A DNA stretch of 27,781 nucleotides, from the IMG/VR virus record IMGVR_UViG_3300033145_000531, positions 1 to 27,781 of that record; one strand, given 5' to 3'. Numbering within the stretch: position 1 is the first letter of the stretch; each line of letters starts with the position of its first letter. Below, in pieces: positions 566 to 6,534 of this stretch. The DNA comes from a virus. The notes below the pieces were generated by a model that saw only the letters and a program-made list of their open reading frames with translations, was not told the DNA's origin and did not search any database. Position numbers and translations under genes: made by a program.

Positions 566-1078
566 ATGAGCACTATAGACGATACAATTATAGTAGATGA
601 TCAATCGGATACCCCGAAACCCCCGAAACCCCCGAAACACGCAGGCGGACGCCCATTGAAATTCCCGGATCCCAAAGCTCTTGAAAAAAAAATAAATGAA
701 TATTTTGCCAAATGTGACGAGGGCGAGGATATTCTAATAAGAGACAGATTCGGGAAAAAAACAACAAAACATGTACGGATACCGTACACAATTGAGGATT
801 TAGCGATATGCCTGGATTGTGATCCGAAAACAATACGCAATTATGGGGTGCGAGACGAGTTTTTCCCGATAATTTCGCGAGTTAAGGCTCGCATTCATGC
901 GTCTTGGATACGAGGTGGCCTCACGAACGAGTACAATAACAAGATGGCAGCATTAATACTCGCTGCGAATGCGCCTGGTTACAACATCCACAAGAAGGTC
1001 GAACTCGGAAATCAGGATGGCGGTCCGCTTACGGTTGAAATTGTTCAGTTCGGGGAAAAGAAAAAGTCTAATGATTAA
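566..1078 (+). CDS. terminase small subunit, gp3-like DNA packaging protein
   Basis: This 170-residue protein resembles the phage DNA-packaging gp3 family. It has the typical AGGRPLKF opening (about 26-33), an amphipathic KKINEYF helix, and a helix-turn-helix-like segment at about 74-94 (TIEDLAICLDCDPKTIRNY), ending in a DEFFPII motif. In this family the small subunit recognises the packaging start site on the concatemer and hands DNA to the large subunit. A loop at 55-72 between the first helix and the HTH makes it slightly longer than usual. A Pro-Lys tract at 17-24 comes from a 9-bp DNA repeat. The ATG has GAGGA seven bases upstream. It is the first gene of the packaging cluster, and the large subunit follows about 500 bp downstream. 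Confidence 0.85.
   Translation: MSTIDDTIIVDDQSDTPKPPKPPKHAGGRPLKFPDPKALEKKINEYFAKCDEGEDILIRDRFGKKTTKHVRIPYTIEDLAICLDCDPKTIRNYGVRDEFFPIISRVKARIHASWIRGGLTNEYNNKMAALILAANAPGYNIHKKVELGNQDGGPLTVEIVQFGEKKKSND
612..638. repeat. three tandem CCCCGAAAC 9-mers inside the small terminase gene
   Basis: CCCCGAAAC occurs three times without interruption (612-620, 621-629, 630-638) and encodes the Pro-Lys-Pro tract at residues 17-24. The block is unusually C-rich for an AT-rich genome. In P22 the pac site lies inside the small terminase gene, so a repeat here could be a recognition element; this is inference by position. Confidence 0.6.
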
Positions 1079-1587: not shown

Positions 1588-3906
1588 ATGAGTCGATTAA
1601 GACTTCCCAATAACGGATGGACGCCACGTGATGACCAAATGCCCTTATGGATATATTTAGAAGGCGGGGGTAAGCGGGCTGTTGAGGTAGCTCATAGGCG
1701 TTGGGGTAAGGATGATATAGGATTGCATTTTACGGCTACTGCGGCAATGCGGCGGGTAGCGAATTACTGGCATATGCTTCCTCAGTATGGCCAAGCGAGA
1801 AAGGCTATTTGGGATGCTGTGAACCCCCGAACGGGTATGCGTCGAATTGACGAGGCGTTTCCCGAAAGAATACGTAAGAACACTCGTAAGCAGGACATGT
1901 TTATCGAGTTTATAAACGGGTCTACCTGGCAGTTAGTCGGGTCTGATAATTATGATGCAATTGTTGGGTCTTCCACTGGTGGTATTGTTTTTAGCGAATG
2001 GGCATTGGCCGATCCTATGGCTTGGGCGTATTTATCTCCCATTTTAGAGGAAAACAAGGGTTGGGCATTATGGATTTATACAAGTCGTGGAGCTAATCAT
2101 GGTAAGACCATGTTTGAGTCCGCACAAAGGACAAAGGGTTGGTTTGCCGAAAGGCTAACTGCTTTAGAGACTCCTGTTTTCACAAAAAAGCAATTAGATC
2201 AAATTCGATTAGAGTATATTAATATTTTTGGCCCGGAATTGGGCAACGCCTTATTTTCGCAAGAATATTATTGCAGTTTTGAAGGTGCTGTTATGGGTGC
2301 TTATTTTGCATCCGCATTAATTCAGGCGAAAACTGATGGCCGGATTACAAAAGTACCACATCATCCCGGTATAGAGGTTGATACTTTTTGGGACTTAGGT
2401 ATTGATGATTCAACTGCTATCTGGTTTTTACAACCAATGGGTCAGGCGTATCATTGGATTGATTACGAAGAGGGTGTCGGATTCGGTATGGGGCATTACG
2501 CTAAAATACTAAAAAATAAGCCGTATGTTTATGGCAATCATTATATGCCGCATGATGCTCGAAACCGGGTGCAAAGCGAGGGTATTTTAGCGGTATCGAC
2601 CAAAAAAATCGCGGAGAACGTGGGCATTAAACCAATTATTGTGGTAAATCGTCCTCGAAGTATGGATGTTATTATTAAACAACATATTCCCGCATGCCGA
2701 AACGCTATCGCTACAAGCTGGTTTGACGAAATCCGATGTAAACAAGGACTTGAAGCATTAGAGAATTATCGAGCCGATTATGATGAAAAAAGAAAGGTTT
2801 TGTCTGAACATCCTAAACATGATTGGTCGTGTCTTTCCGGGGAAACAAAAATAAGAACATTAAACGGATGGATAGCAATTCAAGATTTAGTTGGGAAAGA
2901 ATTTTATGTATGGGCATATAATATAAAACAACACAGATTGAAACCAGTTAAAGCATTAAAATGTTGGCAGGCAAAAATAGCAACAGAATTGGTTAAAATA
3001 ACTCTTGATGACGGACATATTATACAGTGCACTCCAGATCATAGATTTATGCTTCGGGATGAGTCGTGGATTGAAGCAAAAGATTTAACCATTAATTCTT
3101 CTTTAATGCCGTTTTATGAAACAAAAGACAGGAATTATATAAAAATTCATTTAAACGATGGAACACAGGCAGAAGAACATCAATTTGTTTATTCTGTTTT
3201 TAATGGATTGCTTGAAAATGGATACCATATTCATCATAAAGATTTTGATAAATGTAATAATAATCCCGAAAATTTAATAAAAATGAGTATTAGAGAACAT
3301 ATTTCTCTTCATTCTAAACAACCGGAACGTCTTAAAAAATTAAGAATTAATGCTAAAAAAAGCAATCATGCGGGGGGAACGATTCATCTTATTAAGATGA
3401 ATAAAAATAGAGCGGGAGAGGCTCATCACACAAGACAAAAAAATTATTGGACAGATGAGAAACGTAAAAAAATTGGCGATAGTTCTATTAGAAGTTTTAA
3501 ATCATCTGAAAAAGAAAAGATTTGTGCTGGGTGTGGAGGTATTTTTATTGGGAACTGGAAACGATTGTATTGTTGTAATGGCTGTAAAAGTTATTACCGA
3601 AACAAAACTCATTATTTTGATGAGCCGATACATAGCGAAGATTGTCGAATAATTTCAACAAAAATTAAAGCAAATAATCATAAAGTTATGTCCATAGAAT
3701 TTTTAACTGATGTAAATATTCCTGTTTATGATATTTATGTTTATGAAAATCATAATTTTGTAGCTGAGGGCGTTGTTGTTCATAACTCCCATAGTGCTGA
3801 TGCTTTTCGCACTTTTGTAGCAGGTTATCAACGTCATCGTGGGTCTATTCCTAATATAGCTCAGTATCGCAATAAAGGTCGAGCAAAATCATGGATGATA
3901 CAATAA
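1588..3906 (+). CDS. terminase large subunit, interrupted by an intein
   Basis: This is the ATPase-nuclease motor that pumps phage DNA into the prohead and cuts it to length. Residues 34-48 hold the adenine and Walker A region with the HRRWGKD signature seen in phage terminases. The Walker B motif is at 132-139 (GIVFSEWA). The C-terminal RNase H-like nuclease shows WDLGIDDST (268-276), a PHDA motif (321-324) and HDWS...HSADAFR (411-414 and 735-741). The reading frame is 772 residues, but 415-733 are an intein, so the mature protein would be 453 residues, a normal size. The ATG has only a weak CGAGA site upstream. The next gene begins 45 bp downstream. Without splicing, the intein would split the nuclease centre and probably abolish cutting. 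Confidence 0.96.
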   Translation: MSRLRLPNNGWTPRDDQMPLWIYLEGGGKRAVEVAHRRWGKDDIGLHFTATAAMRRVANYWHMLPQYGQARKAIWDAVNPRTGMRRIDEAFPERIRKNTRKQDMFIEFINGSTWQLVGSDNYDAIVGSSTGGIVFSEWALADPMAWAYLSPILEENKGWALWIYTSRGANHGKTMFESAQRTKGWFAERLTALETPVFTKKQLDQIRLEYINIFGPELGNALFSQEYYCSFEGAVMGAYFASALIQAKTDGRITKVPHHPGIEVDTFWDLGIDDSTAIWFLQPMGQAYHWIDYEEGVGFGMGHYAKILKNKPYVYGNHYMPHDARNRVQSEGILAVSTKKIAENVGIKPIIVVNRPRSMDVIIKQHIPACRNAIATSWFDEIRCKQGLEALENYRADYDEKRKVLSEHPKHDWSCLSGETKIRTLNGWIAIQDLVGKEFYVWAYNIKQHRLKPVKALKCWQAKIATELVKITLDDGHIIQCTPDHRFMLRDESWIEAKDLTINSSLMPFYETKDRNYIKIHLNDGTQAEEHQFVYSVFNGLLENGYHIHHKDFDKCNNNPENLIKMSIREHISLHSKQPERLKKLRINAKKSNHAGGTIHLIKMNKNRAGEAHHTRQKNYWTDEKRKKIGDSSIRSFKSSEKEKICAGCGGIFIGNWKRLYCCNGCKSYYRNKTHYFDEPIHSEDCRIISTKIKANNHKVMSIEFLTDVNIPVYDIYVYENHNFVAEGVVVHNSHSADAFRTFVAGYQRHRGSIPNIAQYRNKGRAKSWMIQ
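2830..3786 (+). other. intein with HNH homing endonuclease and zinc finger
   Basis: These 319 residues (415-733 of the precursor) form a self-splicing intein. Block A begins at Cys415 (CLSGETKI). Block B has TPDH with His485. The splice end shows VYDIYVYENHNF followed by VVVHN, with terminal His732-Asn733 and Ser734 as the +1 nucleophile. Between the splicing halves is an HNH endonuclease (HIHHKDFD from 547, NPENL at 559-563, His571 and His575), then a probable zinc finger (Cys646, Cys649, Cys662/663, Cys666). Hand counts of four 60-base blocks give 20-28% GC inside the intein and 45-57% in the flanking terminase code, which suggests a separate origin. All nucleophiles needed for splicing are present, so it should be active. 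Confidence 0.95.
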
Positions 3907-4401: not shown

Positions 4402-6534
4402 ATGCTTAATGGTGTTAGCAATCAATTCAAGCCTTTTTCTGAATTATCCAATGAGGAAAAGTTAAGGCGAGCCAGGAAGGATTATAACCAGGCTGTTTCT
4501 GCTGATTCCGTTTTTCAACGCAATGCAAGACTTGCCAATCAGTTTTATGCCGGAGATCAATACACCCGCGAGGAACGTTCTTTATTGGCACAAGAGGGCA
4601 GGCCGGATTTGACTTGTAATTTGATTAAACCAACTATTGAATTAATTAAAGGGGTAAACGAACAAAATCGAGTTGAGGTTAAAGCTAATGCCACAGAAAA
4701 GACCGATGGGTTTTTAGCTGATATTCTTAATAATTGTTATAATAAAATCAAGGAGATTGAAGATCTTGAAATGCAGGAAGATGATGCGTTGGAAAATTGC
4801 ATTATTACCGGCAGGGGTTTTTGCGCCGTGGATGTAGCTCCCGACCCTAAGCGACCCGGTGAGATTAAAATTCCTATTGTATCCATTCCGCCTAGTGAAA
4901 TTCGACTTGACCCATCTGGTAAAAAAAACGATTTAAGCGATCATCGTATGATATTTTGGCATAAATGGGTCACATTGGAAGATTTTGCCATTCAATACCC
5001 GGATGCAATCGAGGATATTGAAGCTATTATGGCCGGCGAATCCATTGGGGATTTAATGGAAGCTGATACCGATATTTTAAATGAATTTGGTGATTTACCG
5101 GTTGATACGCCGACAGAAGATGAATACAGTACCATTATGAACACAGGATATTATGACAAAGCTCGTGGTCATGTCCGGGTGGTACATGAAGAATATTGGG
5201 AAACTTATGACCGGTATTATGGATTTAACCCGACAACCAAGAAGCTTGAGGAATTTGAAAAGGATAAACTTAAGACTTTAAAACAACTTTTTCCAAATTT
5301 TCAATACCAGATTGTAAAAGATAAAAAGATTAAATGGTTTCAATTCACCGGTCATAAGATATTGTATGACGGTGATTCTCCTATCCCGTATGATGGATTT
5401 TCTATTGTAGCGGAATTTGCGTATAAGGATAAATCCAGAAGCAATATTACTCATTTTGGAGTCGTAAAGGATATGATTGATCCGCAGCGGGAGGCAAATA
5501 AACGATGGTCACAGACTTTAAATTTATATTTAAAGCAGACCCAAGGTGGTCATTTTGTTGAAGAATCCGCTATATTAGACGAAAAGCAATGGAAGGATTC
5601 GATTAACGCTCCCGGTGAGGACACTCTTGTAACTAATGGTGCATTATCAGAGGGTAAAATTAGAGAAAAAACAATTCCACAATTTCCAACCGGAGCGTTA
5701 CGGTTGCATGAAATGGCACAAGATTTAATCAAGAAGGTGTCCGGGGTAAATCCTGATTTACTTGGTATATCCGGGCAACGAGCCGAACCCGGTGTGGTAA
5801 TTCGTTTACGGCAGCAACAAGGGCTAACTGTATTAGCTAAATTATTTAAAAATCATCATCATATGCAGGAACAGTTAGGTAAGCGAATATTTGCTATTAT
5901 TATGAAATATATGCCTAATTCTCAAATACAACGAATTTTAGGAACTGGAGATAATTATATTTTTCGGGGCGAATTAATTGTTGATGTGCAAAATAAAATT
6001 GTTGCTCCTTTTCGTAATTTAAGAGATTTGAAATACAATATTGATACCAATGAGAGTAGTGCCAATACGACAAAGACAATGGGTCAATTGGCGATTTTTA
6101 TAGAAATGATGAGCAAAGGTTTCCCGGTTGATCCAAGAGCAGTTGTGAGCCGACTTGATTTACCTGAAAAGGACAAATTACAATGGATTCAATATATAAG
6201 CCAGATGCAACAGGGACAGCAACAGCAAGCACAAGCAGAGTTGCAGTTAAAAGCCCAAACTCAACAGGCAAAAGCAATGGGTGCAAAGGAAAGATTACAG
6301 TTGAATGCTCAACAGGCCGCAAGTGAATTATCAATGGAGCAAAAAGAATTAGAACAAAAGGAACTTGAAGATCGCCGAAATTTCTTTTTGGAACTGTCTA
6401 AATTGGATATGCAAAGTCAACAGCTTGTAATGGGTTTAATTACAAAATTAGCGAGTCAACCTATGCGGCTTCCAGCTTCGGGAATGGGCAAACCGAATTC
6501 GGAGATGATGGCTGCATCGAGTGAGGGTATGTAA
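4402..6534 (+). CDS. portal protein, P22-type
   Basis: This 710-residue protein forms the dodecameric ring at one capsid vertex through which DNA enters and leaves. It is close in length to P22 gp1 and carries family marks: an ANQFYAGDQYTREER segment near 45-58, a GRPDLTCNLIKPTIELIKG segment at 67-84, and a helical DDALENCIITGRGF stretch near 125-140. The C-terminal part (about 598-675) is a long Gln/Ala/Glu-rich helix resembling the portal barrel, followed by a Met/Ser-rich tail. It lies four bases after the preceding stop and directly abuts the next ATG, so it is part of one operon. The call is secure; the barrel assignment is inferred from composition. Confidence 0.95.
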   Translation: MLNGVSNQFKPFSELSNEEKLRRARKDYNQAVSADSVFQRNARLANQFYAGDQYTREERSLLAQEGRPDLTCNLIKPTIELIKGVNEQNRVEVKANATEKTDGFLADILNNCYNKIKEIEDLEMQEDDALENCIITGRGFCAVDVAPDPKRPGEIKIPIVSIPPSEIRLDPSGKKNDLSDHRMIFWHKWVTLEDFAIQYPDAIEDIEAIMAGESIGDLMEADTDILNEFGDLPVDTPTEDEYSTIMNTGYYDKARGHVRVVHEEYWETYDRYYGFNPTTKKLEEFEKDKLKTLKQLFPNFQYQIVKDKKIKWFQFTGHKILYDGDSPIPYDGFSIVAEFAYKDKSRSNITHFGVVKDMIDPQREANKRWSQTLNLYLKQTQGGHFVEESAILDEKQWKDSINAPGEDTLVTNGALSEGKIREKTIPQFPTGALRLHEMAQDLIKKVSGVNPDLLGISGQRAEPGVVIRLRQQQGLTVLAKLFKNHHHMQEQLGKRIFAIIMKYMPNSQIQRILGTGDNYIFRGELIVDVQNKIVAPFRNLRDLKYNIDTNESSANTTKTMGQLAIFIEMMSKGFPVDPRAVVSRLDLPEKDKLQWIQYISQMQQGQQQQAQAELQLKAQTQQAKAMGAKERLQLNAQQAASELSMEQKELEQKELEDRRNFFLELSKLDMQSQQLVMGLITKLASQPMRLPASGMGKPNSEMMAASSEGM

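Follow-up and report, generated by a model that had tools for sequence, protein, structure and literature searches.

A probable homing intein in the motif III region of a phage large terminase, with relatives of its HNH nuclease found in several reading frames

The window analysed here is the whole 27,781-nucleotide stretch (positions 1 to 27,781) of the IMG/VR virus record IMGVR_UViG_3300033145_000531. A 772-aa open reading frame (ORF) at positions 1588–3906 of the plus strand corresponded to a large terminase (TerL) gene interrupted by an intein. Profile matches showed that it was flanked by the genes of a P22 gp3-like small terminase and a P22-like portal protein. The features of the region were as follows:

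566..1078, plus strand: small terminase subunit, P22 gp3-like (phrog_606, 7e-17; Pfam GP3_package, 3.3e-17)
1588..2829, plus strand: N-extein, residues 1–414, with the ATPase domain and most of the nuclease domain (fold match of the homologue L002 to TerL structures; phrog_2 match of L002)
2830..3786, plus strand: complete class 1 intein, 319 aa, Cys1 to Asn319 (profiles; Hint fold at precursor residues 413–735)
2830..3105, plus strand: N-terminal splicing region, intein residues 1–92, with block B T68-P-D-H71 (TIGR01445, 7.3e-13 at residues 1–74)
3106..3324, plus strand: HNH_3 endonuclease domain, residues 93–165, with H136, N144 and H157 (Pfam HNH_3, 2.4e-9)
3514..3615, plus strand: Cys4 finger C232, C235, C248, C252 (invariant cysteines)
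3676..3786, plus strand: C-terminal splicing region, ending in His318-Asn319 (TIGR01443, 1.1e-5 at residues 298–319)
3787..3906, plus strand: C-extein with the +1 Ser734, H735 and D738 of nuclease motif III, C-terminal tail and stop (sequence; alignment of relatives)
4402..6534, plus strand: P22-like portal protein (PF16510, 2.2e-96; phrog_156)

The host gene was characterised through its intein-free homologue L002. A Pfam search of L002 gave no match; phrog_2 (terminase large subunit) matched it at 4e-20. The AlphaFold model of L002 (pLDDT 86.5) resembled the ATPase domain of the P74-26 TerL (Z 22.8) and the SPP1 G2P nuclease (Z 17.0), and in the structure comparison residues 236–430 approximately matched the nuclease domains of SPP1, P22, G20c and RB49. 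Searching PDB sequences with the TerL alignment gave a match to the P74-26 ATPase domain only. Both the P-loop ATPase and the RNase H-like nuclease domains of a TerL were found from the model and phrog_2. With the N-extein as query, 80 relatives were retrieved from IMG/VR, and 78 of the matches crossed the insertion site. Residues R37, R38, G40, K41 and D42 were kept in all 75 relatives covering these positions, and E137, D269 and D323 were present in 78/78. The H416xxD419-A segment of the spliced protein is what we take, from what is known of RuvC-like nucleases, to be the RuvC-type third motif. The first-pass annotation had assigned a catalytic role to the Asp of SHSADAFR (Asp738, D419 after splicing). 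This residue is Asp in 71 of the 78 relatives and Ser in the other 7, so that the Asp is not universal, and the catalytic assignment is reasonable but softer. The Ser-bearing relatives include L003, L009, L010, L011, L013 and L023 (SHGASAF, SHGSSAF), and the substitution suggests an altered nuclease site in these proteins.

The junction was located between S414 and S415 (spliced numbering), in the segment P-x-H-D-W-x^S-H-x-A-D-A. This point lies beyond the ATPase domain and inside the nuclease domain, at motif III; the empty-site relatives and the structure model both place it within the TerL nuclease motif, as had been proposed. No intein was present at the site in any of the 78 relatives spanning the junction, where the alignment reads straight through. 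The nearest relative, L002, is 72% identical, shows the same residues at the site and is intein-free. In 74 of these 78 proteins Ser already occupies the +1 position, so that invasion required no change of the extein. The TerL nuclease probably cannot work without splicing, as the insertion separates the final helix, which bears H416xxD419, from the remainder of the fold.

The boundaries given by the first-pass annotation were exact to the residue. The Cys415 codon starts at 2830, the Asn733 codon ends at 3786 and the Ser734 codon occupies 3787–3789, for a predicted ligated TerL of 414 + 39 = 453 residues. The splicing nucleophiles it had described as intact were all present, the class 1 set being complete with C1, T68-P-D-H71 (TxxH), H318-N319 and the +1 Ser734; C1, T68 and H71 were invariant among the intein relatives. 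The Pfam profile Intein_splicing (PF14890) matched at 6.5e-23 and, like TIGR01445 and TIGR01443, was above cut-off. The precursor model (pLDDT 80.6) matched the Hint fold of the DnaB (Z 21.9), RecA and DnaE inteins, with boundaries at approximately 413–735. The relative geometry of the HNH, finger and Hint parts is undefined in this model because residues 606–618, 630–637 and 674–694 are of low confidence; the HNH-finger linker is poorly modelled. The HNH motif and the Cys4 finger were also confirmed, as H136, N144, H157 and the four cysteines C232, C235, C248 and C252 were invariant among the in-frame inteins of the window, L095, L096 and L103. The AT-richness of the block held on average, with a GC content of 30.3% for the intein vs 43.2% for the N-extein (GC3 of 0.188 vs 0.365), but the values of 60-base lines overlapped (18–43% vs 30–57%) and did not separate into the 20–28% and 45–57% first reported. 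Downstream of the intein, no 957-nt stretch of the window was equally AT-rich.

When the intein alone was used as query, a scan of viral contigs confirmed no relative. Relatives were recovered instead by the junction pattern and then by an alignment scan. Three of the 19 junction-pattern hits (L086, L088 and L092), which lie in short frames, were rejected as fortuitous. L095, L096, L103, L105, L106 and L107 proved to carry an intein at exactly the codon junction used in the window, with the HNH in frame. At this junction L110 carries an intein whose HNH is partly lost, and L098 a 134-aa mini-intein. The inteins of L112 and L121 are inserted one codon upstream. L120 is a near copy of L110, and both L120 and L121 are on contigs of bacterial MAGs. 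That degenerate or mini forms occur, in L110 and L098 at the site used in the window and in L121 one codon before it, makes it conceivable that the window holds a splicing-competent intein which has lost its HNH activity and is passively inherited. We consider this unlikely, as none of H136, N144, H157 or the four finger cysteines is missing and the identity to relatives of the HNH domain (0.45–0.64) matches that of the N-terminal splicing half (0.46–0.57). Such similar values are as expected if the nuclease were still under selection; the sequences have diverged too far for a sound dN/dS test. The window intein is an ordinary, apparently intact member of the in-frame HNH group.

The identity to the window of the whole intein was compared, locus by locus, with that of the extein nuclease domain. 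The intein was clearly nearer to the window than its host TerL in L105 (48% vs 32%), L106 (45% vs 35%), L107 (38% vs 25%) and L103 (39% vs 26%), about equally near in L096 (36% vs 35%) and not nearer in L095 (37% vs 44%). In the TerL tree, the window TerL shared a clade with 18 rows that lack an intein (100/97), and grouped with L002 alone at 100/99. In the intein tree, the window intein fell in a separate clade (98/92) with inteins of TerLs that lie outside the TerL clade of the window. The conflict between the two trees supports a horizontal gain of the window intein. The forks within the intein clade were unsupported, and the donor and the direction of transfer are thus left unplaced by the tree. 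Because the intein is not closer than its host in L095 and about equally close in L096, the case for transfer depends chiefly on L105, L106, L107, L103 and the tree. The intein is sporadically present at a fixed, otherwise empty site and its history is unlike that of the host gene, as in homing elements.

It had also been proposed that splicing could act as a switch, in which case regulated splicing would delay the TerL nuclease until packaging. The position at motif III fits this idea, as the precursor should lack the nuclease while keeping its ATPase domain intact. Yet 78 relatives manage without the intein, its distribution is that of a mobile element which does not follow the host gene, and no sequence sign of a splicing cue was found. 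A redox trap, prompted by the Cys present at −1 in 13 of the 78 relatives, was ruled out since the window has Ser at −1, and no cysteine is found from −1 to −3. The switch is therefore left without support and appears very unlikely. Homing accounts for the data, and regulation is unnecessary.

In ShiLan, an HNH insertion with zinc fingers lies out of frame in a conserved phage gene, the frame of which is unbroken; it has no splicing domain, whereas the window shows a full intein with the HNH in frame (PMC11855218). That the window insertion is never spliced, being either an assembly artefact in what is a single metagenomic contig or an in-frame insert retained in the protein, like the ShiLan-type inserts, which lack splicing motifs yet do not interrupt the host frame (PMC11855218), is hardly credible when all the splicing blocks and nucleophiles are present, unlike in ShiLan, and the same junction recurs in several independent contigs.

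We propose that the window intein is, with high probability, a selfish homing element which combines class 1 splicing, HNH homing into intein-free TerL genes and horizontal spread. In this model, translation of the TerL gene would give a 772-residue precursor. The intein would excise itself by the class 1 route, with an acyl shift at Cys1, transfer to Ser734, cyclisation of Asn733 and ligation, and the product would be the 453-residue TerL with motif III restored. We infer that the HNH of the freed intein, probably guided by the Cys4 finger, would cut intein-free TerL alleles during co-infection, the conserved codons for HDWxSHxADA being the putative target. Repair of the cut allele would then copy the intein in.

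Inteins of phage TerL have been described by Kelley et al. 2016 in mycobacteriophages (TerL1-a to -e, TerL6-f and Pham3880-g), with all seven sites in the ATPase domain (PMC5050341). Like the window, these are inteins in a phage TerL; those tested spliced, five in all, and two cut the intein-less alleles (PMC5050341). The window differs from sites a to g by its location in nuclease motif III and by its other TerL family, and it thus represents a well-anchored member at a nuclease- rather than an ATPase-domain site. The motif III region is not unique to the window, because Acinetobacter phage Highwayman (OZ038341), Lactobacillus phage CL2 (NC_028835) and Vibrio phage 1.245.O (NC_055736) also carry there TerL inteins with a related HNH-Cys4 nuclease. 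Their junctions (HYIDA^C, HDH^C and HDDA^C, respectively) are unlike that of the window, and the HNH, in frame in the window, is out of frame in Highwayman and on separate reading frames between the intein halves in CL2 and 1.245.O. A search of the open-access literature, with most subscription papers outside its reach, returned no paper describing TerL inteins in the motif III region. In the cultured phage Highwayman (L082:936-3218, OZ038341.1), the TerL intein (HYIDA^C) measures 327 aa, and its +2 frame codes for an HNH carrying two Cys4 fingers; the ORF is annotated as terminase large subunit, nothing more. As TerL is a common phage marker gene, unrecognised inteins skew protein lengths, trees and annotation. 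In CL2 (L083:455-2774) and Vibrio 1.245.O (L085:92-3823), the TerL intein halves lie on separate frames near motif III with the HNH-Cys4 ORF between them, and these may be split inteins or broken ones. Split inteins with an intervening homing endonuclease are reportedly the 'fractured genes' of Dassa et al. 2009. Like the window, such genes join an intein and a homing nuclease at one gene; the window TerL differs from them in being one continuous ORF.

The scans showed that the motif III region holds in-frame HNH inteins, mini-inteins and a large group of inteins with an out-of-frame HNH. We think it rather likely that motif III of the TerL nuclease is a hot spot for inteins, at which one HNH-Cys4 family has been joined to inteins in frame, overprinted in the +2 frame or between intein halves. 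In L087, L090, L091, L093, L094, L097 and L099, frame 0 of the intein runs without a stop from Cys1 to Asn, yet the +2 frame reads as a clean HNH-Cys4 protein, related to the window HNH (hhalign 98.1%, E 6.4e-14). Conservation was higher in the +2 frame (0.49–0.69) than in the frame-0 spacer (0.21–0.47) in 21/21 pairs. Counted by codon position of the +2 frame, in pairs that are non-independent, substitutions numbered 1828 at the third, 1143 at the first and 935 at the second position. Under synonymous permutation of the +2 frame, frame 0 stayed open in 0 to 10.6% of the trials per locus. A scan with the +2-frame nuclease recovered 267 relatives, of which the best 80 loci were kept (L122–L201). 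Frame 0 was open across the whole HNH match in 80/80 of these best loci. Wherever the pattern located Cys1, it stood 59 codons before the HNH ATG, except in L197, where an internal Cys had been hit. Among the same 80 loci, 67 were bounded from Cys1 to Asn, it being understood that some automatic C-terminal boundaries are clearly internal (e.g., L132, L195, L199) and that several loci are near copies. The junctions of the overprinted group vary inside motif III (HDW^, HDWx^, HDWxSH^ and HDWxSHG^).

The spacer of the overprinted intein seems to stay open solely to let a second frame specify the putative homing nuclease. Unless it has already been described, the overprinted form would amount to a novel type of composite mobile element. 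The probable hot spot and its overprinted group are of greater interest than the window intein itself. At motif III, inteins are paired with members of one nuclease family in several reading frames, and this single insertion region lets one study how inteins gain, retain and lose homing nucleases.

Two TerL ORFs contained further insertions. L095:374-4561 is a single TerL ORF of 1396 aa with apparently three inteins, one at the P-loop, a second ahead of the Walker B region and a third at motif III, and both LAGLIDADG and HNH domains were detected in it. The TerL ORF of L090:8482-11862, on the minus strand, contains, besides its motif III intein, another intein-like insert further upstream.
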